Translations under genes and position numbers: made by a program
Shown here: piece after piece, positions 13,242 to 40,218 of the stretch
How positions within the stretch are numbered: the first letter of the stretch is position 1
Layout of the letters: each line of letters opens with the position of its first letter
The notes under the pieces: generated by a model
The model's input: the letters and a program-made list of their open reading frames with translations, nothing else
Told to the model about the DNA's origin: nothing
Databases searched by the model: none
From: an uncultured Aquimarina sp.
GTDB taxonomy: Bacteria; Bacteroidota; Bacteroidia; Flavobacteriales; Flavobacteriaceae
Length of the DNA: 64,000 nt
NCBI GenBank assembly: GCA_947498765.1
Contig: CANMLG010000015.1
Location: 62,001-126,000 of the forward strand
Direction of reading: 5' to 3'

Positions 13242-13244
13242 AGA

Positions 13245-14024
13245 ATGGAAAAGCTACTAATAGCCAAAATAGGAGGAAATATAGTTGATAATGAAGATGC
13301 ATTGCAAAGCTTTTTAAAAGATTTTGCAGCTATTGATCAACCGAAAATTTTAGTGCATGGTGGAGGAAAAATTGCAACCCGTATTGCCGAAAAATTAGGA
13401 GTAAAAACTCAAATGATCAATGGACGACGTATTACATCAAAGGAAAATTTAGATATTGTAGTACAGTTGTATGCTGGCTTAATAAATAAAAATATTGTAG
13501 CAGATTTACAAGCAACAGAATATTGTAACGCTATTGGATTTACAGGAGCCGATGCGAATTTAATAACTGCTGTAAAGCGTCCAGTGAAGGATATTGATTA
13601 TGGTTATGTTGGTGATGTGACTGAGGTAAATCAAGATCGTATTCATCAATTTTTAGCTAATGGACTAACACCAGTTTTTTGTGCAATTACACATAATGGT
13701 AATGGACAATTATTTAATACAAATGCGGATACTATAGCGTCACAAATAGCAGTAGCTTTAAGTAGTTATTATGAGGTGTCATTATATTATTGTTTCGAAT
13801 TAAAAGGGGTGTTGACAGATATAAAAGATAAAGATTCGGTAATCGAAAAAATTGATTCAAAAAAATATTTAGAATTAAAAGAACAAGGTATTATAGCTGA
13901 TGGCATGCTTCCTAAAATGAAGAATTGTTTTGATGCATTACAAAAAGGAGTAGCCGAGGTGCATATTGCAAATGCAGAGTTTGTAAATAATCATAATGTA
14001 GAACACACTACATTAACGCTGTAA
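13245..14024 (+). CDS. argB: N-acyl-L-glutamate kinase (ArgB)
   Basis: A 259-residue amino-acid kinase. The phosphate-binding N-terminus IAKIGGNIVDN, the LVHGGGKIATRIAEKLG loop near residues 35-55, an acyl-glutamate-binding GRRITSKENLDIV segment near 65, and NADTIASQIAVAL near 160 are all recognisable. It phosphorylates the gamma-carboxylate of N-acylglutamate, the second step of arginine synthesis; in this phylum the acyl group is expected to be succinyl rather than acetyl. It lacks the N-terminal helix of arginine-inhibited hexameric forms, suggesting a dimer without strong feedback, which is inference from length. It lies 64 bases after argF' and 23 before argE. Confidence 0.92.
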   Translation: MEKLLIAKIGGNIVDNEDALQSFLKDFAAIDQPKILVHGGGKIATRIAEKLGVKTQMINGRRITSKENLDIVVQLYAGLINKNIVADLQATEYCNAIGFTGADANLITAVKRPVKDIDYGYVGDVTEVNQDRIHQFLANGLTPVFCAITHNGNGQLFNTNADTIASQIAVALSSYYEVSLYYCFELKGVLTDIKDKDSVIEKIDSKKYLELKEQGIIADGMLPKMKNCFDALQKGVAEVHIANAEFVNNHNVEHTTLTL

Positions 14025-14047
14025 TAAGACATACAAGTAATCAACTA

Positions 14048-15118: not shown

Positions 15119-15191
15119 GGGATCGTATATTGGGCATCAATTAATAAATTATTTTTTTTGCCTAAAATTAGAAACCTGAAACCAAAAAAAT

Positions 15192-21825: not shown

Positions 21826-21837
21826 AAAAGAAAAGTC

Positions 21838-23924: not shown

Positions 23925-26900
23925 ATGAAGAATTATTTTTTGTTCAGATTATTTATTATTGCCTTTTTAACACAATCGTGTAATTATTTTAATAATAAAA
24001 GAAGTAAAGAATCAATAGTAGAAAATAGAAAAAACTTAATTTTCGAAGAAATTAGGTCCGGTATTTCTGGATTAACCTTTTCAAATACTTTAAAAGAAAC
24101 AGATACTTTAAATTATTTTACTTACCCATATTTATATATGGGAGGTGGGATATCGGTGGGGGATATTAATAATGATGGTTTAGATGATTTGTTTTTTACA
24201 GGAAATCAGGTTTCAAATAAATTATATCTAAATAAAGGAAATTTAAAGTTTGAAGATATAACGAATACGGCAGGTATAGGTGGAGATCACAGGTGGTATA
24301 CGGGTACGACCATGGCAGATGTAAATGGAGATGGCTTATTGGATATTTATGTTTTAGTGGCGGGGCAGTCTAAAAATATAAATTTTAAGCAAAACGAATT
24401 ATATATTAATAATGGAGATTTAACTTTTACAGAAAGCGCTAAAAAATATGGACTAAATGATAAAGGACAAAGTGTAAGTGCTACATTTTTAGATTATGAT
24501 AAAGATGGTGATTTAGATGTTTATGTGGCTAATTATCCCATAACGCCTTTTAATGCAAGTACCTATCAGTATACTCAAATGATGAATTATGTACAGGATA
24601 TCCAATCGGATCAATTATATAGAAATGAAGGAGGACATTTTTCTAAAGTAACAGAAAAAGCAGGAGTTAAACAATATAATCTATCCTTGAGTGCCACAGC
24701 AGCAGATATTAATAATGATGGTTGGCCCGATATTTATGTGTCTTCCGATTTTAATTCGCCGGATGCATTGTATATTAATAATAAGGATGGTACTTTTTCT
24801 GATAGAATACATGATATAGTAAACCATACTGCATTTTATGGAATGGGGGTGGATATTGCAGATTTTAATAATGATACCCATTTAGACATCTATCAAATGG
24901 ATATGGATGCAGCTAGTAACCGCAGATCAAAAGCGAATATGGCAAGTATGAATCCAGAAATGTTTGCAGATATTGAAAAGGCAGGATTTAAAACCCAATA
25001 CATGCAAAATGCCTTACAATTACAAACAGGAAAAGGAAAAGATGGATTGCCAATTTTTTCTGAAATATCTCGCTTATCAGGGATTTCATCCACCGATTGG
25101 AGTTGGGGACCTTTATTTGCAGATTTAGATAATGATGGTTTTAAAGATATTTTTGTTTCAAATGGAACGCGAAGAGAAATTAATAATAAAGATTTTTTTA
25201 ATTCTTTAGTAGGGCACAAAAAGCATAAAGATAGTTTATTGTATAATACATTAAGAATACCTTCAGAACCAATTGATAATTATGTGTTTAAAAATAAAGG
25301 AGATTTAACGTTTGAAAAAATGAATGATCAATGGGGTATTTCGCATAAAGGATTCTCTAATGGTTGTGTGTATGCAGACTTAGATAATGATGGCGATTTA
25401 GAAATTCTAACAAATAATATTGATGAAGAGGTTTCACTTTTTAAGAATACTACAGATAGTACTAAGAATTATATCCAATTAAGCTTCAAAGACATCAAAG
25501 GAAATAGAAATGGATTAGGGACTAAAGCTTATGTATATAGTGAGAAAAAAGTACAATTTCAAGAATTAACGTTAACAAGAGGTTTTCAATCATCAATGGC
25601 ACCTTATTTACATTTTGGATTAGGAAAAGAGAATAAAATAGATAGTATTAAAGTAATTTTTTCTAATGGAAACATAAAATTAATAGATAACATTTCGGTT
25701 AATCAGCGATTCACTATTGATGTAAAAGAAGCAGGTAATAAGAACGTTCTTTTAGCCAATCAGCGTAGTTTTTTTAAAAGTGATACGGATAGTTTAGCGA
25801 TTTACAAGCATAAGGAAAATTATTATGACGATTTTAAAAAGGAAGTGCTTTTACCGCACAAAACTTCAAATTTTGGTCCAGGTATTTCTGTAGGGGATTT
25901 AAATGAAGATGGATTAGATGATTTTTACATAGGTGCTGCCAAAAGATACCCAGCAGGTATGTTTTATCAAAATCTAGATGGAAGTTTTACACAGCAAAAA
26001 ACTAAAGTTTTAGTCAATGATAGAAATCATGAGGATTTAGGTTCTGTTATTTTTGATGCTGACAATGATGGAGATAATGATATTTACATTGTGAGTGGAG
26101 GGAATGAATTTAACCATGATTCAGAAATGCTTCAGGATAGGTTGTATGTAAATATGGGTAAAGGCAATTTTATTAAGAGTCCAACATCATTACCAAAAAT
26201 GTTATCAAGTGGCAATCGAGTGTATACTAATGATTTTGATAAAGATGGGGATTTAGATTTATTTATAACAGGAAGGCTTGTTCCAGGGAATTATCCATCA
26301 CCAGCAAATAGTTATGTTTTAGAAAATGTAAGTACAAAAAGTTTTGTAAAGTTTGTCGATGTAACAAACAAAGTAGCCCCATTCATGAATAAATTAGGTA
26401 TGGTTACTTCAGCATCTTTTAGTGATATTGATAATGATGGATGGGATGATTTAGTGGTTGTAGGTGAATGGATGCCAATTAAGATTTTTAAAAATAGCAA
26501 AGGGAAATTTTTAGATGTTTCAAAAAAATACGGGCTATCCAGTGAAACTTCGGGCTGGTGGTTTAGTATTAAATCAGCAGATTTTGATGCTGATGGGGAT
26601 CAAGACTTTATTATAGGGAATTTAGGGTTAAATTATAAATACAAAGCCGATAAAGAAGAAACATTCGATATTTATTTTAATGATTTTGATGGGAATAAAA
26701 AGAATGATATTGTATTAAGTTACTATAATGAAGGCAAACAATATCCAGTTAGAGGGAGACAATGTTCCAGTCAACAAATTCCAACTATAAAGAAAAAATT
26801 TAAAAACTATGAATCATTTTCAACTGCCACTTTAGAAGATGTTTATGGTGACAAATTAAAAAAGTCATTACACTATCAAGTAAAATCATTTGGTAGTATT

Positions 26901-27251
26901 TATATGGAAAATACAGGAGGTGGTTTCAAATTACACCAGTTGCCAAATCAAGCACAGCAAGCACCTATCAACCAAATTTTAATAAAAGATTATAATAATG
27001 ATGGTAATTTGGATGCACTAATTGCAGGGAATTTATATGCCTCGGAAGTAGAAACACCTAGAGCAGATGCAGGTATTGGGGGGTTGTTGTTAGGGAATGG
27101 AAAAGGAAAATTTGAATATCAAAATGCTTTCAAATCAGGGTTTGTGGCTAGAGGAGATGTTAAGGATATGGCTTCAATTAAAATAAAAAAAGATAATTAT
27201 ATTTTAATTGCAAAAAATAATGATTTCATGCAAATAGTCAAAGAGAAATAA
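23925..27251 (+). CDS. Large VCBS/FG-GAP repeat lipoprotein with ASPIC/UnbV domain
   Basis: A 1108-residue surface or periplasmic lipoprotein: signal ending FLTQSC with Cys19 as the lipid site. About fourteen calcium-loop motifs of the form DxNxDGxxD are spread along the chain (DINNDGLDD, DVNGDGLLD, DYDKDGDLD, DLDNDGFKD, DFDKDGDLD and others), the signature of FG-GAP/VCBS beta-propellers. An ASPIC/UnbV-type domain lies in the middle (GNRNGLGTKAYVYS to HFGLGKENKIDSIKVIF, about 530-590). The pattern suggests two propellers joined by that domain. Proteins of this kind regularly accompany SusC/D pairs in flavobacterial carbohydrate loci; ligand binding is likely, while catalysis has no visible support. 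Confidence 0.88.
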   Translation: MKNYFLFRLFIIAFLTQSCNYFNNKRSKESIVENRKNLIFEEIRSGISGLTFSNTLKETDTLNYFTYPYLYMGGGISVGDINNDGLDDLFFTGNQVSNKLYLNKGNLKFEDITNTAGIGGDHRWYTGTTMADVNGDGLLDIYVLVAGQSKNINFKQNELYINNGDLTFTESAKKYGLNDKGQSVSATFLDYDKDGDLDVYVANYPITPFNASTYQYTQMMNYVQDIQSDQLYRNEGGHFSKVTEKAGVKQYNLSLSATAADINNDGWPDIYVSSDFNSPDALYINNKDGTFSDRIHDIVNHTAFYGMGVDIADFNNDTHLDIYQMDMDAASNRRSKANMASMNPEMFADIEKAGFKTQYMQNALQLQTGKGKDGLPIFSEISRLSGISSTDWSWGPLFADLDNDGFKDIFVSNGTRREINNKDFFNSLVGHKKHKDSLLYNTLRIPSEPIDNYVFKNKGDLTFEKMNDQWGISHKGFSNGCVYADLDNDGDLEILTNNIDEEVSLFKNTTDSTKNYIQLSFKDIKGNRNGLGTKAYVYSEKKVQFQELTLTRGFQSSMAPYLHFGLGKENKIDSIKVIFSNGNIKLIDNISVNQRFTIDVKEAGNKNVLLANQRSFFKSDTDSLAIYKHKENYYDDFKKEVLLPHKTSNFGPGISVGDLNEDGLDDFYIGAAKRYPAGMFYQNLDGSFTQQKTKVLVNDRNHEDLGSVIFDADNDGDNDIYIVSGGNEFNHDSEMLQDRLYVNMGKGNFIKSPTSLPKMLSSGNRVYTNDFDKDGDLDLFITGRLVPGNYPSPANSYVLENVSTKSFVKFVDVTNKVAPFMNKLGMVTSASFSDIDNDGWDDLVVVGEWMPIKIFKNSKGKFLDVSKKYGLSSETSGWWFSIKSADFDADGDQDFIIGNLGLNYKYKADKEETFDIYFNDFDGNKKNDIVLSYYNEGKQYPVRGRQCSSQQIPTIKKKFKNYESFSTATLEDVYGDKLKKSLHYQVKSFGSIYMENTGGGFKLHQLPNQAQQAPINQILIKDYNNDGNLDALIAGNLYASEVETPRADAGIGGLLLGNGKGKFEYQNAFKSGFVARGDVKDMASIKIKKDNYILIAKNNDFMQIVKEK

Positions 27252-27360: not shown

Positions 27361-28377
27361 ATGTCTTCACTACTAAAAAAAATATACGAATTACAGAATA
27401 TACCTTCTATTTCTAAACACGAACAGATTGTACTAGGAGTTATAGCAGCTATTGATGCTGATATTTTAAAAATAGACGATAAGTTACCTTCTATAAATGA
27501 AATGGTAGCCGAAGTAGGTTATGCGCGTAAAACTTTTGTAAAAGCATATAATGAGTTAAAAGAAAGAGGACTTATTGAATCTAAAAGTATGAAGGGATAC
27601 TTTGTAATAAGTAATAAAACGAATGTTAAGCTTAGAGTAGCTTTAGTTTTATTTGCTTTTCATAGTTTTCAAGAAGATTTTTATAATACCTTCAGAAAGG
27701 AATTAGGAGACAAATTCCATATTGATATCTTTTTTCATCATAATAATGTATCTTTATTAAAAACAGTTTTAGAGAATATTTCACGAAAATATGGAATGTA
27801 TGTAGTGGCTCCTATACAGAAAGCTGAAGTGAGTGAAATGTTAAAGCAATTTTCTTCCGATAAGTTATTGATTATTGACCGTCATATTAAAATGCCTAAA
27901 ACATATTCATATATAACACAAGAGTTTGAAAATGTTACTTATCAAAAATTGGTAGAGTTAAGTTCTGGTATAAAAAAACATAAGCGTTTTGTATTGTTTT
28001 ATAAAGATAATTCTGATTATCCGTCAGATATTTTAAAAGCTTTTAATCGTTTTGTTGATGAATATGATATTGATGGGACTGTGCTTGATAGTTATGAGCC
28101 AAATACTTTAAAACGAAACACAGTATATTTTTCAATAAGTGATACACAATTATGGAAAGTTTTGAAGGATGCCCGAAATATGGAATATCGATTAGGGAAA
28201 GACATTGGTATATTAGCCCATGATGATAATATTATAAAGGAAATTGCCTTTGGTGGTATTTCCACAATATCAACAGATTTTACCTATATGGCCAAAAAAG
28301 CGGCTCTTTTTGTTAAAGAAGGAAATCCTATTCAAGAAACAGTACCTACTTATTTAAGACAACGTAATTCTTTATAA
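27361..28377 (+). CDS. GntR-family regulator with LacI-like ligand-sensing domain
   Basis: This 338-residue protein has an N-terminal GntR winged helix (about 15-82, with KLPSINEMVAEVGYARKTFVKAYNELKERGLIES) and a C-terminal region resembling periplasmic-binding-protein sensors of LacI type (RVALVLFAFHSFQEDFYNTF, MYVVAPIQKAEV, LLIIDRH, DIGILAHDDNIIKEIAFGGISTIST). This pairing is typical of Bacteroidota sugar regulators that bind a small sugar or sugar phosphate. The gene lies between the two SusC/D pairs and is the only regulator in the accessory region, so it is the best candidate to control one or both and the downstream GH36 operon. Ligand unknown; galactose or a galactoside is my inference. 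Confidence 0.9.
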   Translation: MSSLLKKIYELQNIPSISKHEQIVLGVIAAIDADILKIDDKLPSINEMVAEVGYARKTFVKAYNELKERGLIESKSMKGYFVISNKTNVKLRVALVLFAFHSFQEDFYNTFRKELGDKFHIDIFFHHNNVSLLKTVLENISRKYGMYVVAPIQKAEVSEMLKQFSSDKLLIIDRHIKMPKTYSYITQEFENVTYQKLVELSSGIKKHKRFVLFYKDNSDYPSDILKAFNRFVDEYDIDGTVLDSYEPNTLKRNTVYFSISDTQLWKVLKDARNMEYRLGKDIGILAHDDNIIKEIAFGGISTISTDFTYMAKKAALFVKEGNPIQETVPTYLRQRNSL

Positions 28378-28590
28378 ATGTAAAGAATCGCCTTTATTTA
28401 TTCTGCGAAACAAAACTTTGTATTTCACCCAATAAAAAATCATTTTCATTCTTCATACACAAGAGATATTTGTTTTTATAACAATTTTGATGTAAGAATA
28501 TTCGTTATTATATTAATAATTTTTAAGCTATTAAAATGTTAATTTTTTAATTTATATTCATTTTAATAGAGTTTTGTTCAAAAAATTAAT

Positions 28591-28598
28591 TATTTTTG
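28591..28598 (+). promoter_or_regulatory. Candidate -7 element (TATTTTTG) of second SusC/D operon
   Basis: TATTTTTG fits the Bacteroidota TAnnTTTG consensus 69 bases before the SusC start. A TTTG at 28573-28576 lies 14 bases upstream, shorter than the usual spacer of about 19, so the -33 assignment is weak. Confidence 0.4.
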
Positions 28599-28608
28599 AA
28601 AGTAGCAT

Positions 28609-28626
28609 AGTGTATCATAGCACACT
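28609..28626. promoter_or_regulatory. Candidate operator dyad downstream of the SusC promoter
   Basis: AGTGT (28609-28613) and ACACT (28622-28626) form a dyad 10-18 bases after the candidate -7 element, where a bound repressor would block initiation. On the minus strand it contains TGCTATGATA (28613-28622), the same decamer found in the dyad before the GH36 gene at 33484-33499. The GntR regulator at 27361-28377 is the likely binder; this is inference. Confidence 0.35.
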
Positions 28627-28667
28627 TTGTTTTGATCATAGAAAATACCAACTAAAAAATTATTGTA

Positions 28668-31600
28668 ATGAATTTAAAACTATACATTAAAATTATTGTG
28701 TTATTATTAGTGGGGATTACATCTGTAAATGCACAACAGTCGGTTTCAGGAGTTGTTAGTGATAAAAACTTTCCACTTCCTCAAGTAAATATTTCCATTG
28801 AAGGAACCACAAAAGGGACTACTACCGATTTTGATGGAAATTATACTTTGAATAGTATTGAAGAAGGTCAAACTATAGTATATAGTTACATTGGCTACAG
28901 TACCCAGAAGATTTTATATAATGGGCAAAAAAAGATTGATGTAGTGCTTCAAGAAGATACAGCATCACTCAGTGAAGTGATTATTGTAGGTTATGGTTCG
29001 CAAATAAAAAAGGATTTGACCTCATCAATATCGACATTGAAAGCTAAAGAAATTACACAAACAGCAGTAGCAAGTAATCCCGTTACTGCGTTACAAGGTA
29101 GAGCTCCTGGAATACAGGTTGAAAGTTTTGGAGGGCAACCAGGAGGGAGAGCAAATGTATTTATAAGAGGGGTAAATTCATTAAGTAATGCCTCACCACT
29201 TTTTTTAGTTGATGGTTTGTTTGTTGATGATATGCAGTTTGTAAACCCAAATGATATAAAAAATATATCAATCCTTAAAGACGCAGCAGCTGCGGCTATA
29301 TACGGATCAAGAGCTGCCAATGGAGTAATTCTTATTGAAACGAATCATGGTCGTCAAAATGGAGAAATTGAAGTAAAATTTACTTCAAGAATAGGAGTAG
29401 ATACACCAAGTAAAAAATTAGATTTTATTAATGGACAACAATACACGGAATATTTAAATCAACGTTTTAGGAATGATCAAGATCCTACATCAACTGATCC
29501 GGCACCACAAGTAACTTGGAATGGCGTGGATACCGATTGGCAAGATCAAAATATATCACCTGCTTTAGTACAGGATTATGGATTAACAGTTTCTGGAGGT
29601 GGAGCAAATACATCTCAATTTTTTTCATTCAACTATTTTGATCAGGATGGTATTTTAGTAGGTTCTGGTTTTGAGCGTATCAATCTTCGTTTTAATAGTA
29701 AGTTTGATAAAAATAAATTTCATGTAACTCAATCAGTAGGTGTTGCTCAAGGAAAACTACAAGAAAATAATTGGTATGGATTTGATGGTACTACAGCTCC
29801 AACTGTAGCGGTACGAAATCCTAATAATGAAGGAGGTTTTGAAGCTCCTCTAACTCAAGTGCAAGGTCCGGGAGGTGTAAACCAGTTTGCTTTAGCTTCG
29901 TTGGAAGAAAATGAAACAACAACCAGAACTATTTTCGGGAATGTTAAATTAGAGTATGATATTACAGACTATTTAACAGCAGGGGCAACCTTTGGAGTAG
30001 ATTATCGCAATATTAGAAATTTTCAATTTACACCTACCTTTGTTCAAAGTAGAGATGTTGATCCAATTCGTAATTTAAATGAACAAAATGACCTTACTGA
30101 TTTTAGAACAGAAGAATTAAATTTTCAAGTAGAGCCTACACTTAATTTTAATAAAGATTTTGATAAGCATAAGGTGGGAGCGGTATTAGGATTTACTTAT
30201 TTCGAAGAAAATATTGTAAGTGGCGGTATTTTTGGTCAAAATACTCCAGCAAACTCCATAAGAGTTACTAGTGCATTACCTTCTAATGATCAGTTGGTAC
30301 TTTTGGGTGAAGATAGTGAGGCTACATTAGTATCTTATTTTGGAAGAGTAAATTATAATTATGATAGTAAATATTTATTTTCGGCAACATTACGTAGAGA
30401 TGCCACATCTCGTTTTGCAAAAGAGAATCGAGTAGGGTATTTCCCTTCATTTTCAGCAGGGTGGAATATTAGTAACGAAAATTTTTGGAAATCTGAAGTC
30501 GTTAATTATTTAAAGTTAAGAGCCTCTTATGGTGAGTTGGGATCTTATCCAGATACATTTTACCCAACGCAAGATGTATTTCCGAATAACAGATCAAATA
30601 CCTCATTCGGAGGAACAAATGCTACAGGTTTAGCAAGGTTAACAATAGCCGACCCTAATTTAATATGGGAAACAACGAAAACGTTTGATGTTGGAGTTGA
30701 TGCTTCTTTATTAGATAGCAGAATTAATTTTTCAGCAGATTATTATTCTAAGGATATCGAAGATGTAATAGTTGATATAAATTTAGCACCAAGTTTAGGC
30801 TTTGATTTACCAACCACACGTAATGCAGGTAATTTAATTAACCAAGGATTTGAATTTAGCCTTAATTACAAAAAACGAGAAGGGGATTTTATATTTACCG
30901 CAGGAACAAATTTTTCATTTAATATAAAGAGTGAAGCTGGAGATATTCCTAATCCAATATTAGGACCCGAAATTGACGAAGATTTACGTAGGGTTAATCG
31001 AACTATTTCCAATCAACCAATAGGTGCTTTTTATGGGTTTATTGTAGAAGATCGTGTGAATCCTGATACAGGAGATTTTGTAAGAAGAGATATAAATAAC
31101 GATGGAGCCATTGACGAAAATGACCTTACGGTAATTGGTGATCCAGTTCCAGATTTCACCTATGGATTTACTTTTGATGCAGAATACAAAAATTTTGATC
31201 TAGGGTTAAACTTTGTAGGTGTACAAGGAAATGAAATTTATAATTTAAGTAGGTATTATAATATTTTATGGCAAGATGGAGGTAAACTTACAGAGGTGTT
31301 AAATGCATGGACTCCTACAAATAGAAATACGAATATTCCTAGAGCTACAGTAAGTGATGGAGCAGATAACAAAGCGCCTTCGTCATTTTTTGTCGAAGAT
31401 GGTTCTTACTTTAGGCTAAAAACTCTGGAAATAGGCTATAATTTTAAAGATGGGATTTTAGGAAATGACATCATAAAAGATCTTCGATTATCATTCAATA
31501 TTCAAAATGTATTTGTACTTACAGACTATTCGGGTTATGATCCAGATGTTTCTTCAACCGATGGAGGTAGAGCAAGTTTAAATTCGGGAGTACCTGGGGT

Positions 31601-31697
31601 TCGAGTTCCTGTGAATCCATTACTGGGAAGAGGTTTAGATGCTAGAGCTTATCCCAATGCTCGAACTTTTACATTAGGTATTCAAGCTACATTTTAA
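28668..31697 (+). CDS. SusC/RagA-type TonB-dependent outer-membrane transporter (second pair)
   Basis: A 1009-residue SusC protein with signal peptide ending near VNAQ (about residue 23). It has a carboxypeptidase-regulatory-like domain (VSGVVSDKNFPLPQVNISIEG), the LSEVIIVGYGSQIKKDLTSS link, and a plug with SPLFLVDGLFVDD and DAAAAAIYGSRAANGVILIET. The barrel closes with a terminal FTLGIQATF. It is about 110 residues shorter than the first SusC, mostly in the barrel loops and N-terminus. Its SusD partner begins 12 bases later. It lies directly after the GntR-type regulator and upstream of the GH36 operon, so its ligand may be related to an alpha-galactoside; that link is positional only. Confidence 0.95.
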   Translation: MNLKLYIKIIVLLLVGITSVNAQQSVSGVVSDKNFPLPQVNISIEGTTKGTTTDFDGNYTLNSIEEGQTIVYSYIGYSTQKILYNGQKKIDVVLQEDTASLSEVIIVGYGSQIKKDLTSSISTLKAKEITQTAVASNPVTALQGRAPGIQVESFGGQPGGRANVFIRGVNSLSNASPLFLVDGLFVDDMQFVNPNDIKNISILKDAAAAAIYGSRAANGVILIETNHGRQNGEIEVKFTSRIGVDTPSKKLDFINGQQYTEYLNQRFRNDQDPTSTDPAPQVTWNGVDTDWQDQNISPALVQDYGLTVSGGGANTSQFFSFNYFDQDGILVGSGFERINLRFNSKFDKNKFHVTQSVGVAQGKLQENNWYGFDGTTAPTVAVRNPNNEGGFEAPLTQVQGPGGVNQFALASLEENETTTRTIFGNVKLEYDITDYLTAGATFGVDYRNIRNFQFTPTFVQSRDVDPIRNLNEQNDLTDFRTEELNFQVEPTLNFNKDFDKHKVGAVLGFTYFEENIVSGGIFGQNTPANSIRVTSALPSNDQLVLLGEDSEATLVSYFGRVNYNYDSKYLFSATLRRDATSRFAKENRVGYFPSFSAGWNISNENFWKSEVVNYLKLRASYGELGSYPDTFYPTQDVFPNNRSNTSFGGTNATGLARLTIADPNLIWETTKTFDVGVDASLLDSRINFSADYYSKDIEDVIVDINLAPSLGFDLPTTRNAGNLINQGFEFSLNYKKREGDFIFTAGTNFSFNIKSEAGDIPNPILGPEIDEDLRRVNRTISNQPIGAFYGFIVEDRVNPDTGDFVRRDINNDGAIDENDLTVIGDPVPDFTYGFTFDAEYKNFDLGLNFVGVQGNEIYNLSRYYNILWQDGGKLTEVLNAWTPTNRNTNIPRATVSDGADNKAPSSFFVEDGSYFRLKTLEIGYNFKDGILGNDIIKDLRLSFNIQNVFVLTDYSGYDPDVSSTDGGRASLNSGVPGVRVPVNPLLGRGLDARAYPNARTFTLGIQATF

Positions 31698-31708
31698 AAC
31701 AAAGAACT

Positions 31709-33295
31709 ATGAAATCAATAAACATAAAAAAAATTAGAGTAGTAGTGTTCATAGGAATTCTATTATTTGGTTGTTCCGAAGATGTATTGGAAAAAGAAAA
31801 TAATAATGCTACATCAAGTGCTAACTTTGGAGCTAATTTTGAGCAAATTGAAGCTGCAGTAAATGGAGCTTTTCATCCACTAACAACAGCATTTTGTTGG
31901 GGAAGAGTGTTGCATACTGGTGCGTTTTTACGATCTGATGAATACAATGTATTTGAATTTGGATCAAATACGGCTATGGCTGGTCTTAAAGCTACACCAG
32001 CAGATCGTTGGGCATTAGAACCATGGCAACAAATGTATAAATCAATCGGGCGTTGTAATACCATAATTACTAGAGTTGATGCCAGTGCGGATAGTAATTT
32101 TGAAAGCTTACTTGGTCAAGCTTATTTTTTACGAGCGTTTAATTATTGGTATTTATTGCATCTGTATGGAAATATCCCTCTTGTACTTCAAGAACCTGAT
32201 TTGGATGCATTACAACCTGATCAAGCAGAACCCAATGTAGTTAGACAAACAATTATTGATGATTTAAGAAAGGCTTCGGAGATGCTTCCAGATCAATGGT
32301 CGGGAGATGATGCTGGGAGACCTACAATGTGGTCGGCAATTGGATTATTAGGTAAAACTTATTTGTATAATAAAGAATGGGATATGGCACGTATCGAATT
32401 TCAAAAAATTGTAGACCAAGGAAGGTTTTCATTATTACCTACAAATAGTTTTGGTCAAAACTTTGGCATAACTAATGAAAATAATAATGAGTCATTGTTT
32501 GAATTACAATTTTTAGCTGTAGACTCCTTTATATGGGGAGTAGACATAGCAGGAACAGGAACACAAGGTAATTATCATATTGATTATGCGCCACCTACTA
32601 AATCACCAGATCGAGGACATGTTATTAATCCATGGTTAAGAGATTTATTTGAAAGCAATAATGATACCATCCGAAGAAACGAAACCTTGTTATATGATTA
32701 TCCAAATGCTACAAGCTATGGTGGCTTATCCTTTGAAGAAGATTTAAATACTGTAAGAAATGATGCCGATGGACAGCCAATTCAAACCGATGTTCAAATA
32801 GCTGAAGCTGCTGGTGTCGAGCCTATTTTTTCGAAAAAATATGCTGGTATGGATTTAGGATCTAGAGATGAAGTGAATTTTTTAGGTGCTAATGTTGGTA
32901 ATAATTGGAGAGTAATAAGATACTCGGATGTCTTATTAATGCTAGCCGAATCACTAAACGAATTAAATAGAACAGGTGAGGCTGAACCTTTGATAAATCT
33001 AGTACGCCAACGTGCAGGCATTAATTTATTAAATGGTCTAAATAAAGAGGAAATGACTCAAGCAATTATTGACGAGCGAGCTATGGAATTAGCAGGTGAA
33101 GGACATCGTTTTCTTGATTTAGTTCGCTGGGATTTAGCAGATGACTTTTTAGGAACACCTTCGTTACACGGAGGGCTTAATCATCCAAAATCATTGGTAG
33201 GTGGATCATTTCAATCTAATAGAGATGAATTGATTTGGATTCCACTAGCCGAATTATCAGCAAATCCCAATATTAATCCCAACCCCGGATATTAG
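31709..33295 (+). CDS. SusD/RagB-type surface glycan-binding lipoprotein (second pair)
   Basis: A 528-residue SusD family lipoprotein with lipobox LLFGC (Cys22). Family landmarks are AYFLRAFNYWYLLHLYGNIPLV near 137, GRPTMWSAIGLLGKTYLYNKEW near 210, VIRYSDVLLMLAESLNELNR near 405, and IIDERAMELAGEGHRFLDLVRWD near 450. The C-terminal LIWIPLAELSANPNINPNPGY is the usual end of this subgroup. It should cap the second SusC barrel. A terminator follows 41 bases later. Confidence 0.95.
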   Translation: MKSINIKKIRVVVFIGILLFGCSEDVLEKENNNATSSANFGANFEQIEAAVNGAFHPLTTAFCWGRVLHTGAFLRSDEYNVFEFGSNTAMAGLKATPADRWALEPWQQMYKSIGRCNTIITRVDASADSNFESLLGQAYFLRAFNYWYLLHLYGNIPLVLQEPDLDALQPDQAEPNVVRQTIIDDLRKASEMLPDQWSGDDAGRPTMWSAIGLLGKTYLYNKEWDMARIEFQKIVDQGRFSLLPTNSFGQNFGITNENNNESLFELQFLAVDSFIWGVDIAGTGTQGNYHIDYAPPTKSPDRGHVINPWLRDLFESNNDTIRRNETLLYDYPNATSYGGLSFEEDLNTVRNDADGQPIQTDVQIAEAAGVEPIFSKKYAGMDLGSRDEVNFLGANVGNNWRVIRYSDVLLMLAESLNELNRTGEAEPLINLVRQRAGINLLNGLNKEEMTQAIIDERAMELAGEGHRFLDLVRWDLADDFLGTPSLHGGLNHPKSLVGGSFQSNRDELIWIPLAELSANPNINPNPGY

Positions 33296-33336: not shown

Positions 33337-33373
33337 GAACTAAGCAGATTGTTAAAATTTGCTTAGTTCTTTA
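33337..33373 (+). terminator. Terminator after second SusC/D operon
   Basis: GAACTAAGCA (33337-33346) pairs perfectly with TGCTTAGTTC (33360-33369) across 13 bases, followed by TTTA. It lies between SusD and the GH36 operon, which argues that the latter has its own promoter in 33374-33573. Confidence 0.75.
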
Positions 33374-33483: not shown

Positions 33484-33499
33484 ATGCTATGATAAGCAT
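33484..33499. promoter_or_regulatory. Candidate operator dyad before the GH36-GlpKD-symporter operon
   Basis: ATGCT (33484-33488) and AGCAT (33495-33499) flank ATGATA. The site lies 74 bases before the GH36 start and includes TGCTATGATA at 33485-33494, identical to the minus-strand decamer in the dyad before the second SusC. The two dyad centres are offset by about two bases relative to the shared decamer, so they may not be bound in exactly the same register. Likely regulator: the GntR-type protein at 27361. Confidence 0.35.
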
Positions 33500-33573: not shown

Positions 33574-35337
33574 ATGAAAAAAAATATCACACACCAAATT
33601 GAAATTAGTAAAGATTCTCAAGATTTTGAAGTAACTGTAAATTTGTTAAAGCAATATGGGAATATAGCTATTTATGAGCTTCATTTTTTTTCTGATATAG
33701 CGTTTACACCACAAAAAACAACTTTAAAATGGAAGTTTCCTGCGATTAATGTAAAAGGAGTTTGGAAGCCAACCTCCGATTTTTCAAAACGGATTATGGA
33801 TGATTGGGAATTAGATCATATGCAAGCAAGAATTTCTGTTGATTCTCCTGTAATATCAATTTTCGGACATGATGATACCAATAGAATGACTTTTGCTTGT
33901 TCAGATGCTATTAGTACTACCGAATTGAATGTATTATACAGGGAAGAGGACAATTATATGTATAGCCATATTTCTTTCTTTACAGAAAAACACCACAAGA
34001 TTAAAAGCTACAAAGCACAACTAATTATTGATACTACAGCCTATCATTTTTCGAGAGCATTAGGTAACGTAAATCAATGGTGGAGTTCTTTTGATCAATT
34101 ATCGCCTGTAATGCAAGTAAATGATACAGCTAAATTACCAGTATACTCTACGTGGTATCAATTTCATCAAAATTTGGATACAATTATGTTAATAGAGGAA
34201 TGTAAAAAAGCAAATAAACTAGGATATGGATTAATTATTATTGATGATGGTTGGCAAACTAATGACGATAATCGAGGTTATGATTTTACAGGAGATTGGA
34301 ATCCCGATCGTATACCAGAAATGCAAAGTTTTGTGGAACAAGTACATCAAATAGGACTAAAATTAGCCTTGTGGTATTCGGTACCATTTTGTGGTAAAAA
34401 ATCAAAGGCATATCAAAAGTTTAAAGGAATGCTTTTAGTTGAAGAACATCGATGGGCACCTGTTTTTGATCCTAGATATCCAGAGGTCCGAAATCATTTA
34501 ATTACTATTTATGCTAATGCATTAAAAGAATGGAATTTAGATGGTTTTAAACTAGATTTTATTGATGAATTTAGAGTTTATCCAAATACCGTATTAACAA
34601 AAGAAAATGGAAGAGATTATGCTTCAGTAAATTTAGCAGTTGATCGTTTAATGACAGATATTATGAAGACATTAAAAGCAATAAAATCAGATTTAGTTAT
34701 TGAATTTAGACAAAAATATACAGGACCTGCTATGCGAAAGTATGGAAATATGTTCAGGGCATTTGATTGTCCAGGTGATTCGGTAATGAATAGAGTACGC
34801 ATTGCAGATTTAAGAATGTTAAGTGGTGAAACGGCTATACATAGTGATATGTTTACATACCATAATGATGAACCTGTAGAAATCAAAGCACTTCAGGTAG
34901 TGAATACATTATTTGGTGTTCCTCAATTATCTGTATTGCTAGATAAGGCTACAAAGAGTGAACTAGAAATGATTGAGTTTTATACTAGTTATTGGAATAA
35001 AAATAAAGAGGTTTTACTCCGTGGGAAATTTACTCCTTTAAGGCCATTAGCTAATTATCCTATTTTAAAAGCTGAAACTGATATACATTCAATAATTGGA
35101 GTTTATGATAATTATATTTTAGATATTGAAATGAATGCGGATCGAATTGATATTATAAATGCTAAAATATCTGAAGAAATAATCTTAAATTATAATACAA
35201 TTCACAGTACTTATTCTTGTATTGTTTATGATTGTATGGGAACTGAAATAGATCAATTTTCTATGCAAATGAATGAGGCTTTTAAATATATTAAAGTTCC
35301 GCCTTGTGGATTAGTTGTTTGTTCAAAAAATAAATAA
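33574..35337 (+). CDS. Cytoplasmic GH36-type alpha-galactosidase
   Basis: A 587-residue glycoside hydrolase of clan GH-D. The barrel carries IIIDDGWQTND near 221-231, the nucleophile segment DGFKLDFIDEF with Asp328, and RAFDCPGDS (Asp398, Asp402), where the acid/base is expected. SDMFTYHNDEP follows near 424. There is no signal peptide (the N-terminus is hydrophilic from residue 1), so the enzyme should act in the cytoplasm on an imported small alpha-galactoside. The gene is four bases upstream of the glycerol kinase/dehydrogenase fusion, implying one transcript and linking galactoside cleavage to glycerol metabolism. Other GH36/GH31 specificities (alpha-GalNAc, for example) cannot be excluded. 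Confidence 0.85.
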   Translation: MKKNITHQIEISKDSQDFEVTVNLLKQYGNIAIYELHFFSDIAFTPQKTTLKWKFPAINVKGVWKPTSDFSKRIMDDWELDHMQARISVDSPVISIFGHDDTNRMTFACSDAISTTELNVLYREEDNYMYSHISFFTEKHHKIKSYKAQLIIDTTAYHFSRALGNVNQWWSSFDQLSPVMQVNDTAKLPVYSTWYQFHQNLDTIMLIEECKKANKLGYGLIIIDDGWQTNDDNRGYDFTGDWNPDRIPEMQSFVEQVHQIGLKLALWYSVPFCGKKSKAYQKFKGMLLVEEHRWAPVFDPRYPEVRNHLITIYANALKEWNLDGFKLDFIDEFRVYPNTVLTKENGRDYASVNLAVDRLMTDIMKTLKAIKSDLVIEFRQKYTGPAMRKYGNMFRAFDCPGDSVMNRVRIADLRMLSGETAIHSDMFTYHNDEPVEIKALQVVNTLFGVPQLSVLLDKATKSELEMIEFYTSYWNKNKEVLLRGKFTPLRPLANYPILKAETDIHSIIGVYDNYILDIEMNADRIDIINAKISEEIILNYNTIHSTYSCIVYDCMGTEIDQFSMQMNEAFKYIKVPPCGLVVCSKNK

Positions 35338-35341
35338 AACA

Positions 35342-38300
35342 ATGAGTGAAAAATATATAATTGCTTTTGATCAAGGAACAACAAGTACTCGAGCTATCAT
35401 TTTTGATTCAAAGGCTCAGATTTGTGGTATTGAGCAAAAAGAATTAACGCAAATTTATCCCAAATCAGGTTGGGTAGAACATGACCCATTAGAAATTGTG
35501 AAACACCAAAAAGAAGTTTTTGAGAAGGTATTAGAGAATTCTCAAATTTCTCCGAATCAAATTGCAGCCATTGGTATAACAAATCAACGAGAAACTACTG
35601 TGGTGTGGGATAAAAAAACAGGTGAACCTATTTATAATGCTATAGTGTGGTTGGATAAACGGACTACAGAAATTTGTAAAAAATTAAAGAAGAGTGGATT
35701 ACAAAGCTATATTTCTAAAAACACAGGTTTAATAATTGATTCCTATTTTTCGGGAACTAAATTGAAATGGATTTTAGATCATATTGAAGGTGCCAGAGAA
35801 AAAGCAGAAAAAGGGGACTTGTTATTCGGTACCATTGATACATGGTTAATTTGGAAGTTAACCAAGGATAAAAAGCATGTAACTGATCATACTAATGCAT
35901 CACGTACCATGTTATTCAATATTCATGACTTAGATTGGGATGTCTATTTATTAAAAAAGTTAGATGTACCTAAATCAATGATGCCCAAAGTACAACATTC
36001 CTCATCCGATTTTGGAGTCATTGATTATAAAGGGACTCAAATACCAATTTATGGTGTGGCAGGTGATCAGCAAGCTTCATTATTTGGTCAAGGAGGTTAT
36101 AAATCTGGTATTGCCAAAAATACGTATGGAACAGGGTGTTTCTTGTTATTGAATACTGGTAAAAAAGCCTATCAATCTAAAAATGGCCTGCTAACAACAT
36201 TGTGTTGTAGTTTGCCTGATAAAAAAATAAAATATGCCTTAGAAGGTAGTGTTTTTGTAGCTGGAGCATCAGTAAAATGGCTTCGCGATGAATTACAAGT
36301 AATTTCAAAGGCCTCTGAAACGGAGCAAGTATGTAATCAAGCAGCTTCACCTAAAGGTTTGTATGTAGTCCCTGCATTTGCTGGGTTAGGTGCTCCATAT
36401 TGGGATATGAATGCTAAGGGAGCTATTTATGGTTTGGGCTTAGAAACAGGAAGAAAAGAAATTATTAAAGCGACTATTGATGCTATAGCTTATCAGTCAA
36501 GAGATGTGTTAGAAGCTATGATTGAAGATAGCGGAAAATTAATGAGCGAATTAAAAGTTGATGGTGGAGCTTCTGCAAATAATTACTTGATGCAATTTCA
36601 GGCCGATATTTTAAATATTCAGGTGAATAGACCTGAAATGTTAGAAGTTACCGCTTTAGGTGCCGCTTTTTTAGCAGGAATTAAAGCAGAAGTATGGACA
36701 AAAAAAGACTTAAAAACATTAAATAAAATAGACGAAAAGTTTGTTCCTAAAATTACAGAATATGAACGCACAGAAAAGTATACAGGCTGGAAACAAGCAG
36801 TAGAACGTACTAAAACAGAAAATATAAAAATGCTTGAGGTACAAGGGAATGAACCTATTCGATTTTCTGTATTGGATAGACAACGTCAAATAAAGCAAGC
36901 AGAGTATACCAAATACGATTTAATAATTATTGGGGGTGGAGTTACCGGGGCAGGTATTGCCTTAGATGCCGCTTCACGGGGAATGAAGGTGTGCTTAGTC
37001 GAAAAAAATGATTTTGCGTCGGGAACTAGTAATAAGTCTACCAAATTGATTCATGGGGGACTACGCTATTTAAAACAGATGGAAATCGGATTAGTAAAAG
37101 AGTCTGGAAGTGAACGTGCTATTGTACATAAATTAGCGCCACATTTAGTAGTTCCCGAAAAAATGTTATTGCCTTTAATTGAGGGAGGGACATACGGAAA
37201 AATGATGACAGCCATTGGTTTAAAAGTTTATGATTTTTTAGCTAATGTGGAAGATATAGATAAACGAGTAATGCTTAGCGCAGAAGAAACTTCAGAAAAA
37301 GAACCTCTGTTAAATGCAGATATACTTACTGGAGGTGGTTATTATGCTGAATATCGAACAGATGATGCTCGTTTAACCGTTGAATTATTAAAAAAGGCAG
37401 CTTTTTATGGTGCCAATATTATTAATTATTGCGAAATGACTTCATTTAATTATGACGATAAAGGAATGATAGTAAGCTTGGAATGCATTGATTATAATAA
37501 TAAAGAAATTTTTAAACTAAAGGCTCATAATTATGTATCTGCAGCAGGTCCATGGGTAGATTTACTTAGAGAAAAAGATGATTCAATGAATAATAAACAC
37601 TTGCATTTGACAAAGGGGGTGCATATTGTTTTTTCACGAGAAAAATTTCCATTAACACAATCTATCTATTTTGATGTTCCCGATGGTAGGATGATTTTTG
37701 CTATTCCAAGAGGGAGAGCAGTATACGTAGGTACAACGGATACTAACTATAATGCCAGTTTAAATAGGGTAATTGCTACTTTAAGCGATGCTAACTATTT
37801 ATTGGATGCCATAAATAATATGTTTCCTAATGTGAATTTGTTGTTAGAAGATATCGAATCTAATTGGGCTGGTTTACGTCCTTTGATTCATGAAGATGGA
37901 AAGGATCCGTCGGAACTTTCACGGAAAGATGAAATTTTTCAATCGCAAACGGGGTTAATATCTATAGCAGGAGGTAAGCTAACGGGTTATCGGAAAATGG
38001 CACAGCGAGTTATTGATACCGTGCTAAAAACAATGAGTACTAAAAAACAAGAAAGTTTTACAAGGTCTTTTACTAAAAAAATTTCATTAACCAGTGCACC
38101 TTTAAAAGATACCGATGAAGTTGAAAGTTATACAAAGCAAATAAGCATGAAACTCAAAGAATTGGGGAACAAGGATCCTTATTGTGGATGGTATTTATCT
38201 ACAAATTATGGAAAGCAATCGGATATTATTATTAATAAAATCAATTATTTTCTAAATGACACCATTGAAGAAAGATTGATTAGGGCTGAGGTTTGGTATG

Positions 38301-38521
38301 GAGTTCATTTTGAAATGATAAATAGTCTGTCAGATTTTTTTGTACGAAGAACAGGAAGGCTTTACTTTGATATCAATAGTGTACGTCAATTTAGATCTAT
38401 TGTACAGGAGGATTTAGTTAAATACTTAGGTTGGAATATAAAACGAGTAGAAGAAGAGAATAATTATTTAGACCTTTTACTGCAAGATGCATCAACATTT
38501 TATGAAAAAGAAGTAATGTAA
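35342..38521 (+). CDS. glpK-glpD: Glycerol kinase - glycerol-3-phosphate dehydrogenase fusion
   Basis: One uninterrupted frame of 1059 residues encodes two complete enzymes. Residues 1 to about 495 are glycerol kinase: DQGTTSTR at 10-17, glycerol-binding Arg83-Glu84, Tyr135 and Asp242-Gln243, and VDGGASANNYLMQFQADI near 420. From about 497 comes FAD-dependent glycerol-3-phosphate dehydrogenase: dinucleotide fold GGGVTGAG (531-538), SNKSTKLIHGGLRYLK, then the C-terminal helical domain. The fusion would turn glycerol and ATP into dihydroxyacetone phosphate, probably at the inner membrane. ATG 35342 is the start (a TTG at 35315 would add nine residues). Met497 at the junction might allow separate GlpD. 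GlpK and GlpD are normally separate proteins. Confidence 0.93.
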   Translation: MSEKYIIAFDQGTTSTRAIIFDSKAQICGIEQKELTQIYPKSGWVEHDPLEIVKHQKEVFEKVLENSQISPNQIAAIGITNQRETTVVWDKKTGEPIYNAIVWLDKRTTEICKKLKKSGLQSYISKNTGLIIDSYFSGTKLKWILDHIEGAREKAEKGDLLFGTIDTWLIWKLTKDKKHVTDHTNASRTMLFNIHDLDWDVYLLKKLDVPKSMMPKVQHSSSDFGVIDYKGTQIPIYGVAGDQQASLFGQGGYKSGIAKNTYGTGCFLLLNTGKKAYQSKNGLLTTLCCSLPDKKIKYALEGSVFVAGASVKWLRDELQVISKASETEQVCNQAASPKGLYVVPAFAGLGAPYWDMNAKGAIYGLGLETGRKEIIKATIDAIAYQSRDVLEAMIEDSGKLMSELKVDGGASANNYLMQFQADILNIQVNRPEMLEVTALGAAFLAGIKAEVWTKKDLKTLNKIDEKFVPKITEYERTEKYTGWKQAVERTKTENIKMLEVQGNEPIRFSVLDRQRQIKQAEYTKYDLIIIGGGVTGAGIALDAASRGMKVCLVEKNDFASGTSNKSTKLIHGGLRYLKQMEIGLVKESGSERAIVHKLAPHLVVPEKMLLPLIEGGTYGKMMTAIGLKVYDFLANVEDIDKRVMLSAEETSEKEPLLNADILTGGGYYAEYRTDDARLTVELLKKAAFYGANIINYCEMTSFNYDDKGMIVSLECIDYNNKEIFKLKAHNYVSAAGPWVDLLREKDDSMNNKHLHLTKGVHIVFSREKFPLTQSIYFDVPDGRMIFAIPRGRAVYVGTTDTNYNASLNRVIATLSDANYLLDAINNMFPNVNLLLEDIESNWAGLRPLIHEDGKDPSELSRKDEIFQSQTGLISIAGGKLTGYRKMAQRVIDTVLKTMSTKKQESFTRSFTKKISLTSAPLKDTDEVESYTKQISMKLKELGNKDPYCGWYLSTNYGKQSDIIINKINYFLNDTIEERLIRAEVWYGVHFEMINSLSDFFVRRTGRLYFDINSVRQFRSIVQEDLVKYLGWNIKRVEEENNYLDLLLQDASTFYEKEVM

Positions 38522-38571
38522 TCTGTTTTATTTCAGTAATTTAATTTATTTTAAAATTAATTGAACATTTT

Positions 38572-40218
38572 ATGGGACTTATTTCATTTATTGGATTTAC
38601 ACTTTTAGTAGCAATAGTAGCATGGTGGTCTACCCGAGGAACTGATGAAAAATCAGCTAAAGGCTATTATTTAGGAGGCAGAAGTTTAGGGGCTATTACC
38701 ATTGCAGGGTCATTATTGTTAACTAATCTTTCTGCAGAGCAAATAGTAGGTTTAAATGGACAGGCTTTTACTGAGGGAGTATTGGTTATGGCATGGGAAA
38801 CATTAGCAGCAATTGCTATGATTATTACTGCCGTTTTTTTATTACCTAGCTACATGAAAGGAGGTATTACCACAATACCCGAATATGTCGAAAATCGTTT
38901 TGATCATCAAACTAAAGCCATACTTACGGTATTGTTTTTAAGTGGATATGTAATAGTTATTATACCTTCAGTATTATATTCCGGATCATTAGCTTTTAGT
39001 ACTATGTTTGATATTCCTGAGATGTTGGGAGTTTCTCAAATAAATGCTATACGTATTTGTTCATTCACTATTGGAGCAATAGGTATTGTTTATGCTATTT
39101 TTGGAGGCTTAAAAGCTGTAGCTGTTTCCGATTTGATTAATGCTATAGGTTTATTAATTGGAGGAATGTTAATTCCTGTTTTTGGGTTATTATTGATAGG
39201 AGATGGAAGTATTATTAATGGAATGGATATCCTGTGGAAATCGAATCCAGAAAAGTTTGTAGCCGCTGGAGCAGCTGATGCTTCAATTCCTTTTGGAACT
39301 ATTTTTACTGGAATGATGTTAGTTCAAATGTTTTATTGGGGGACTAATCAAGCTATTTTGCAACGTGTTTTTGGTGCTAAAAGTTTAAAAGAAGGTCAAA
39401 AAGGAATGATATTGGCAGCATTGGTGAAATTTTTAATTCCAATAATTGTAGTGCTTCCAGGGATTATTGCATGGCATGTTTTTGAAGGTGATTTAGCTAA
39501 TCCCGATCAAGCTTATCCATCTTTAGTTAAAAAGGTACTTCCTGTAGGTTTGGTTGGTTTTTATGCCGCTGTATTATTTGGCGCAGTATTAAGCTCTTTT
39601 AATAGTTTATTAAATAGTAGTGCCACTTTGTTTGGTTTTGACCTATACAAACAATATTTTAAAAAAGAAGCAACAGAGCATCAAACGGTAAGGGCAGGGA
39701 AAATGTTTGGTCTTATTTTAGGAATTGTAGGCATGCTGGTAGCTCCATTAATAGCAAATGCTCCCAAAGGATTATTTGCTTGGTTGCAAGAGGCTAATGG
39801 TTGTTATAGTATTCCTATTTTAACGGTAGTTGTTATTGGTTTCTTTACCAAAAGAGTTCCAGCTATAGCGGCTAAAGTTGGTGTTATTTCGGGAGTAGTT
39901 TTATATTCAATAAGTCAGTTTGTCATAAAGCCTAAAATGATTGCAAGTGCTCTTGAAAAAGCCAAAGCTTCAGGAGTTACAGATACTTCGGTGTTAAGTT
40001 TAATAGAAGCAGAAGCCTATCCACATTTTTTACATGTAATGGCTATTTTATTTGTACTAAATATTAGTATTATGCTTGTTATAGGAAAATTATATCCAAG
40101 GAAAGAAGCCTTCATAGCTCAAGAGACTAAAGAAGTTGATATAACTCCTTGGAAGTATGCATTACTTTCAGGTGGTATAATAACTGTTTTGGTATTAAGT
40201 ACGTATTTGATATTCTAA
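38572..40218 (+). CDS. vSGLT-like sodium/sugar symporter
   Basis: A 548-residue polytopic member of the solute:sodium symporter family, with about fourteen membrane helices. Compared from memory with the Vibrio sodium/galactose transporter vSGLT, many sugar-contacting positions are kept: Asn52 and Gln57 in TNLSAEQ, Glu76 (AWETLAA), the gate Tyr255-Trp256 (FYWGTNQ), Lys286 and Gln406 (WLQEANG). Gln252 and Ala79 replace vSGLT Asn260 and Ser91, so the ligand may differ from galactose. This supports sodium-driven uptake of a galactose-containing solute across the inner membrane. It lies 50 bases after the GlpK-GlpD gene with no terminator between, and ends the operon. Confidence 0.88.
   Translation: MGLISFIGFTLLVAIVAWWSTRGTDEKSAKGYYLGGRSLGAITIAGSLLLTNLSAEQIVGLNGQAFTEGVLVMAWETLAAIAMIITAVFLLPSYMKGGITTIPEYVENRFDHQTKAILTVLFLSGYVIVIIPSVLYSGSLAFSTMFDIPEMLGVSQINAIRICSFTIGAIGIVYAIFGGLKAVAVSDLINAIGLLIGGMLIPVFGLLLIGDGSIINGMDILWKSNPEKFVAAGAADASIPFGTIFTGMMLVQMFYWGTNQAILQRVFGAKSLKEGQKGMILAALVKFLIPIIVVLPGIIAWHVFEGDLANPDQAYPSLVKKVLPVGLVGFYAAVLFGAVLSSFNSLLNSSATLFGFDLYKQYFKKEATEHQTVRAGKMFGLILGIVGMLVAPLIANAPKGLFAWLQEANGCYSIPILTVVVIGFFTKRVPAIAAKVGVISGVVLYSISQFVIKPKMIASALEKAKASGVTDTSVLSLIEAEAYPHFLHVMAILFVLNISIMLVIGKLYPRKEAFIAQETKEVDITPWKYALLSGGIITVLVLSTYLIF

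Follow-up and report, generated by a model that had tools for sequence, protein, structure and literature searches.

A gene cluster in the draft genome (G000, 3.84 Mb) of an uncultured Aquimarina close to A. agarilytica is likely to be an inducible locus for the use of alpha-galactosyl-glycerols, with floridoside and/or isofloridoside of red algae as the likeliest substrates. The cluster lies in a window of 64,000 nucleotides, the whole stretch analysed here (positions 62,001 to 126,000 of contig CANMLG010000015.1, or G000:C15:62001-126000), and it comprises a GntR-type regulator with its putative operator, an outer-membrane SusC/SusD pair, a GH36-like enzyme, a fused glycerol kinase (GlpK) and glycerol-3-phosphate dehydrogenase (GlpD), and a sodium symporter. 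Galactosyl-glycerol use, which a sequence-only reading of three of these genes had already proposed, is well supported by genome comparison, because various relatives have their sole GlpK/GlpD or their sole galactokinase (GalK) linked to the GH36-like gene, because no GlpF channel was found in genomes with in-locus glp genes, because a shared operator precedes unlinked glp genes in half of the genomes that have them, and because glp genes appear to have been recruited repeatedly and GlpK co-occurs with the enzyme. The substrate would thus probably contain both galactose and glycerol and be cleaved in the cytoplasm.

Open reading frames (ORFs) and profile matches at 33574-40218 bear out the three adjacent genes that the sequence-only reading had named, the first of them as GH36-like only. 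They occupy co-directional ORFs at 33574-35337 (587 amino acids, GH36-like), 35315-38521 (1068 amino acids, GlpK-GlpD) and 38572-40218 (548 amino acids, symporter). The second likely starts at an ATG at 35342, giving 1059 amino acids; depending on the start chosen, it overlaps the first or follows it after a 4-bp gap, and the symporter ORF comes 50 bp after it. The locus is wider than these genes: the regulator, SusC and SusD (27361-33295), together with the operator, lie upstream on the same strand and were missing from the earlier reading. With a SusC/SusD pair adjoining a carbohydrate-active enzyme and a regulator, the whole qualifies as a polysaccharide utilisation locus.

Among 299 genomes of the same family, 23 carry a homologue of the GH36-like protein at E 1e-140 or better, 17 of them with a close orthologue (at least 50% identity) and six with a distant homologue only. 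All 17 possess exactly one GlpK and one GalK above cut-off and one full-length GlpD. Both GlpK and GlpD lie in the locus in seven of them (G000, G177, G036, G072, G019, G017 and G138), and GalK lies within 11 kb of the GH36-like gene in six (G120, G211, G215, G086, G138 and G177). With a chance expectation of 0.7% per genome for a 30-kb span, P is 1e-11 for GlpK/GlpD and 1e-9 for GalK, and both linkages are far beyond chance, kinship being uncorrected.

The sequence-only reading had noted that the operon holds no glpF, and this extends to the genome: a GlpF-type (NPARD) channel was found neither in G000 nor in the other six genomes with in-locus GlpK, whereas eight of the ten remaining close-orthologue genomes have the GlpF-type Asp (exceptions G026 and G102; Fisher p=0.002). 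We take the residue after the second NPxR motif as the classing rule, Asp for GlpF and Ser for aquaporins. By this rule 11 of the 12 MIP channels of the seven genomes are of the aquaporin type; the twelfth is a broken copy in G072, whose second motif is unseen and whose start resembles the aquaporin-type copies. GlpK itself occurs above cut-off in 17/17 genomes with a close orthologue versus 9/28 without one (11/28 counting two sub-cut-off proteins), the 28 being a hand-picked, non-random set made of all 10 GH86-bearing genomes without a homologue and 18 from earlier lists. Within GH86-bearing genomes the figures are 6/6 with a close orthologue and 1/10 without any homologue (2/10 with a sub-cut-off protein), leaving out G002 and G169, which have a distant homologue only.

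In midpoint-rooted trees, of which that of GlpK carries a long-branch warning, in-locus GlpD and GlpK form one clade separate from the unlinked copies, bar those of three Maribacter loci (L086, L087 and L119) and one Cellulophaga locus (L130), which fall with the unlinked lineage at 100/100 support. Because of this grouping, glp genes would most simply have entered the locus at least twice. The fused state requires two changes on each tree, which fits either one GlpK-GlpD fusion with a later split or two separate fusions.

The regulatory evidence centres on the GntR-SusC intergenic region, where the operator TAGCATAGTGTATCATAG stands four bases downstream of a TATTTTTG box that fits what we take to be the Bacteroidota -7 box consensus, TAnnTTTG; by eye, the arrangement of box and operator before SusC is similar in many relatives. 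The operator at 28603-28620 is the single exact copy in the draft genome, and three more matches with two mismatches each were rejected as real sites, the reversed control pattern giving four. A scan of named genomes provided orthologous loci, of which the best 80 of 165 were compared (Aquimarina, Dokdonia, Zobellia, Maribacter, Algibacter, Flavivirga, Tenacibaculum and others); this set overlaps that of the same-family genomes above, so the two are non-independent. The core motif TAGCATAnnnTAkCATA occurs in 60/80 of these loci, and in several without a same-strand SusC upstream (L084, L092 and L104 among them) an operator copy stands directly before the GH36-like gene. In the window, a reversed operator half, TGCTATGATA, was seen at 33485-33494, between SusD and the GH36-like gene.

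Operators with at most one mismatch also precede unlinked glpK in G018, G001 and G236 and unlinked glpD in G086 and G211, at 32-42 bp from the matched start; five of ten genomes with unlinked glp genes thus have one, versus 0.003 expected by chance. Their position-weight scores range from 11.9 to 29.4 bits. With a matrix built from 22 Aquimarina/Dokdonia sites alone, all five rank first in the fetched stretch at 6.8-28.5 bits, the glpD site of G211 with a close runner-up (6.8 vs 4.4 bits). In a control set of 11 genomes that lack the orthologue, no operator was found before glpK: scores peak at -8.8 near the start and at -4.5 in the whole 4.5-kb stretch. This control, with nine GlpK above cut-off and two below (535 and 548 bits), covers glpK only. 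An extension of the regulon to galK through the operator was rejected, no site with at most one mismatch being present near the unlinked galK of the 17 close genomes. In G017, G019, G072 and G036 a GntR paralogue is encoded close to galK. Far from the locus, a TetR-family gene of G236 is preceded by a strong operator-like site (L181:3595, 35.6 bits).

The regulator matches Pfam GntR above cut-off (34.6 bits) and Peripla_BP_3 slightly below it (24.1 vs 26.5 bits). Its orthologue occurs once per genome, always at the locus, in 16 of the 17 close genomes; the 15 besides our own are 50-72% identical. The remaining genome, G050, has neither the orthologue nor an operator match at the locus.

Neighbour counts over the 80 loci, which depend on the identity and coverage thresholds chosen, show the symporter in 68 and another SSS subtype in eight (both in one locus, neither in five), SusC in 61, SusD in 66 and GntR in 55. 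On the glycerol side, GlpD occurs in 40 and GlpK in 39, 23 of the latter fused to GlpD; on the galactose side, GalE occurs in 18, all Aquimarina or Dokdonia, GalK in five (two further copies being cut by the locus edge) and GalT in two; those examples of GalK, GalT and GalE that were tested score above a family cut-off. Fifty loci hold one or more genes of the two arms. The symporter, galK and galT are consecutive in L082, and L073 and L077 hold glp genes and a galK cut by the locus edge. Relatives of the window's symporter or GlpK/GlpD were not found beside distant GH36-like homologues in the stretches examined. The closest named relatives at the locus are A. agarilytica ZC1 and A. agarivorans, whose GH36-like proteins are 85% and 75% identical to ours, respectively.

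The Melibiase (PF02065) match of the presumed alpha-galactosidase (36.9 vs cut-off 27 bits) covers residues 194-369 only. A Pfam scan that detected both GH36N (PF16875) and GH36C (PF16874) in the full-length GH36 of L065 found neither in our protein, which is therefore named GH36-like and not a GH36 member. It has the clan GH-D fold with the Asp-Asp pair and the catalytic KxD motif: all 24 rows of an alignment share D224, D225, K326 and D328, which match the DDGW and KxD motifs of 3mi6. The Asp-Asp pair is typical of alpha-galactosidases. D328 is a candidate nucleophile, and D398 is only inferred to be the acid/base. The predicted model (predicted local distance difference test, pLDDT, 87.2; predicted template-modelling score, pTM, 0.89) finds GH36-kind alpha-galactosidases or an alpha-galactosaminidase as its 22 best Foldseek matches, with template-modelling (TM) scores of 0.61-0.67 by query and 11-14% identity; GH31 enzymes such as MYORG rank next. 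Of the signal-less GH36 enzyme that had been proposed, the family assignment is valid at the fold level only, while the missing signal stands: a simple hydropathy scan found no N-terminal hydrophobic stretch in the protein or in 80/80 close homologues, and found one in 7/7 distant homologues (those of the six distant-only genomes and the distant copy that G018 has beside its close one). GH4 (PF02056) was not found in our genome. A maltose/galactoside O-acetyltransferase-like gene was seen in 17/80 loci (L036:11723-12283, L089 and others), mostly between the GH36-like gene and the symporter, an arrangement reminiscent of lacA in the lac operon.

The proposed glycerol kinase/dehydrogenase proved to be one fused protein, in which a short linker joins a glycerol kinase (residues ~2-492; TIGR01311 702.8 vs cut-off 590.35 bits) to a flavin adenine dinucleotide (FAD)-dependent glycerol-3-phosphate dehydrogenase of the GlpD type (~508-1035; DAO and DAO_C domains). 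The second half misses the NCBIfam equivalog cut-offs for GlpD (PRK12266, 314.7 vs 360 bits; type 1 oxidase, 436 vs 840); its domains and its match to 3da1 (E 1e-148) support a GlpD-like enzyme, either oxidase or dehydrogenase. The fusion is the only GlpK above cut-off and the only GlpD in its genome. It has 24 fused relatives; in the Algibacter/Flavivirga clade glpK and glpD are separate but adjacent. A narrow, weak search of the open-access literature found no published GlpK-GlpD fusion.

The symporter belongs to the SSF family (NF007790, 734 vs cut-off 401 bits) and, within it, to the SSS/vSGLT group with a vSGLT-like sugar site. As had been claimed, it keeps most galactose contacts of vSGLT: at the six residue numbers that we take to be these contacts, Q69, E88, K294 and Q428 are identical (4/6), S91 is replaced by Ala and N260 by Gln; N64, Y263 and W264 are kept as well. 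The galactose genes, which the sequence-only reading expected elsewhere, lie together on another contig (galK, galT, galM and galE, G000:C11), so that the genome has the Leloir pathway; galM scores 286 bits, below one equivalog cut-off (398), and 260 bits with another model, above its cut-off (240).

Taken as a pathway, SusC/SusD would bring the intact small heteroside across the outer membrane and the sodium symporter would carry it across the inner one, after which the GH36-like enzyme would split it in the cytoplasm into galactose and glycerol. The fused GlpK-GlpD would convert glycerol to dihydroxyacetone phosphate, and galactose would enter the Leloir pathway, whose genes some relatives have within the locus or next to it. 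Repression by the GntR protein is predicted to act at the SusC promoter, through the operator there; some relatives may extend it to unlinked glpK or glpD through the operator copies before these genes.

The genome's other contents would fit a life with red algae. It has 11 GH86 porphyranase-domain matches, one of them on the contig of the window (C15:7245-7556), and no PL7 alginate lyase was found in it. GH86 occurs in 8/23 homologue-bearing genomes versus 10/276 others (p=9e-6), and PL7, the alginate control, in 10/23 versus 60/276 (p=0.04), genome size and kinship being uncorrected in both. A title in the reference list of PMC10163077 gives a red alga as the source of A. agarilytica. Passages of PMC8703398, PMC8509150 and PMC12323150 present floridoside as a principal carbohydrate store and osmolyte in red algae, and PMC8509150 also reports that a GH36 enzyme, through reverse hydrolysis, joins galactose and glycerol to isofloridoside. 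The passages of PMC5928181 and PMC12323150 mention floridoside in algae and no bacterial catabolism; the words "floridoside" and "GH36" are absent from the main text of a Zobellia transcriptome study (PMC5613140). In agreement with the claim that no operon of this composition had been described, neither such an operon nor a bacterial route for floridoside or galactosylglycerol was found in the accessible parts of the open-access literature.

Several observations weigh against galactosyl-glycerol use or its link to red algae. A credible operator was not found at the glp genes in five of the ten genomes with unlinked copies (G026, G102, G120, G215 and G050), and the glpK-only contrast, 3/10 vs 0/11, is non-significant (p=0.09). 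Because genome-wide matches with at most one mismatch are about as many as for the reversed control pattern, the evidence from the unlinked operators lies in their position only. In G032 (L049), a 52% GntR relative and an operator stand upstream of a SusC-like gene, in a locus with an FG-GAP gene and a distant, signal-bearing GH36-like gene, and neither symporter nor glp relatives were found in the stretch examined; regulator and operator are therefore not confined to the cytoplasmic enzyme type. By the thresholds used, 30/80 loci have neither the galactose nor the glycerol arm, galK and glp genes rarely share a locus (L123 has glpD and galK), and GH2-like genes occur in six. Floridoside is so small a solute that a SusC/SusD pair would not be expected for it. 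The association with red algae is non-exclusive because the PL7 carriers make up 10 of the 23 homologue-bearing genomes, and isofloridoside-type galactosylglycerol is also reported, in a passage of PMC5928181, from a golden-brown alga.

Other substrates have to be weighed. Digalactosylglycerol (Gal-alpha-1,6-Gal-beta-1,3-glycerol), the deacylated head group of plastid digalactosyldiacylglycerol (DGDG), likewise has an alpha-galactose and glycerol, and as a larger ligand it suits SusC/SusD. A beta-galactosidase would then free the glycerol, and because the GH36-like enzyme is cytoplasmic by prediction this second cut would need an unlinked enzyme. A scan of seven locus proteins of the window found no beta-galactosidase or lipase. 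The GH2-like genes noted above, Pfam-confirmed for L129 only (which also has galK), speak for this substrate, but they are missing from 74/80 loci; the scan of those loci took in neither lipases nor other beta-galactosidase families. We regard this substrate as unlikely. Raffinose- and melibiose-type sugars are the usual substrates of GH36 enzymes, and with a galactose arm in relatives a generic alpha-galactoside operon could be imagined, the glycerol genes being adjacent by chance or for general metabolism; it seems quite improbable, as it leaves unexplained the operator before unlinked glp genes, their repeated recruitment and the presence of GlpK in all 17 genomes.

Two further readings concern the glycerol arm. 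This arm would fit glucosylglycerol, a compatible solute of marine cyanobacteria, and the clan relatives of the GH36-like protein include GH31 alpha-glucosidases; such an activity appears slightly more improbable still, given that the Asp-Asp pair, of the alpha-galactosidase type, is invariant in the 24 aligned homologues and that some relatives have linked galK, galT and galE genes. Least probable is a regulon for plain glycerol in which the GH36-like gene is a passenger. The sole glp genes do lie in the locus in seven of the 17 genomes, and the operator stands at unlinked glp genes in five of ten, but regulator and operator remain with the GH36-like gene in 16/17 genomes even with glp elsewhere, and no GlpF was found in the genomes with in-locus glp genes.

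Features of the locus and its flank, in window coordinates.
Feature	Position	Strand	Basis
FG-GAP/ASPIC-UnbV repeat protein	23925..27251	+	Pfam
GntR-type regulator, winged helix and probable LacI-type effector domain	27361..28377	+	Pfam GntR, Peripla_BP_3
-7 box candidate TATTTTTG	28591..28598	+	sequence reading
Operator TAGCATAGTGTATCATAG	28603..28620	+	exact match; overlaps presumed SusC transcription start
SusC-type TonB-dependent outer-membrane transporter	28668..31697	+	TIGR04056 796 bits vs cut-off 368
SusD-type outer-membrane lipoprotein	31709..33295	+	SusD_RagB 120.9 bits
Hairpin with T-rich tail between SusD and GH36-like gene	33337..33369	+	14-pair stem
GH36-like alpha-galactosidase, predicted cytoplasmic	33574..35337	+	Melibiase 36.9 bits, 3mi6 alignment, fold matches
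Fused GlpK-GlpD	35342..38521	+	TIGR01311 702.8 bits; glycerol-3-phosphate oxidase/dehydrogenase matches
Sodium/solute symporter, vSGLT/YidK type	38572..40218	+	NF007790 734 bits; vSGLT chains are top PDB matches

The hairpin after SusD is a possible attenuator, a weak reading because terminator-like sites in the stretch are no commoner than in shuffles (3 seen vs 3.2 expected). The FG-GAP/ASPIC-UnbV protein, with relatives in 62/80 loci, frequently travels with the cluster, yet it might be no part of it. A PAP2-superfamily protein of ~440 amino acids (L037:8093-9415), with relatives in 11/80 loci and often adjoining FG-GAP proteins, might be a vanadium haloperoxidase relative. In a Maribacter locus (L128:16691-18613), a GH63 gene resembling mannosylglycerate/glucosylglycerate hydrolases, with a weak NCBIfam score, directly follows glpD and might serve digeneaside, another red-algal heteroside; a digeneaside link for the cluster as such was rejected, this gene being present in one locus of 80. 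Elsewhere in the window are a second SusC/SusD pair shortly upstream of the locus (18457-23370), a run of exopolysaccharide-type genes (832-12131) and arginine-type genes (12224-16472), the last two groups from a Pfam scan of ten proteins.

Set against known systems, the locus shares with the polysaccharide utilisation loci of Bacteroidota a single run of SusC, SusD, regulator and glycosidase genes, whereas its predicted substrate is a small heteroside, its seven scanned proteins include no secreted depolymerase, and its glycosidase, cytoplasmic by prediction, goes together with a sodium symporter of the inner membrane. The enzyme has the barrel fold, DDGW and KxD of GH36 alpha-galactosidases (AgaA, SpAga, Lactobacillus 2xn0 and 3mi6) but differs from them in its low identity, its length (587 amino acids versus ~730) and the two undetected domains. 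The symporter is of the same family as vSGLT of Vibrio parahaemolyticus and the YidK-type SSS proteins, from which its two changed sugar-site residues and its predicted substrate set it apart. GlpK and GlpD chemistry is that of the glp regulon (GlpF, GlpK and GlpD), whereas here kinase and dehydrogenase are fused, GlpF was not found in the genome, and control apparently falls to a heteroside regulator. Similar reactions (alpha-galactosidase, GALT and glycerol kinase) are proposed inside red algae for floridoside turnover, in passages of PMC8703398, whereas the present locus would serve bacterial uptake and catabolism.

The balance tips slightly towards this being the first bacterial regulon for floridoside or isofloridoside. 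It would be a dedicated system with a GntR operator of its own, and it would have captured, or would control, the sole glycerol genes of the cell; its GlpK-GlpD would be bifunctional, and its GH36-like enzyme could be the founder of a new family or subfamily of hydrolases acting on galactosyl-glycerols. If so, a common flow of seaweed carbon could be assigned to named genes, with a regulator open to direct test and an enzyme that can serve as marker, and housekeeping glycerol catabolism would have been shifted into a specialised uptake locus.

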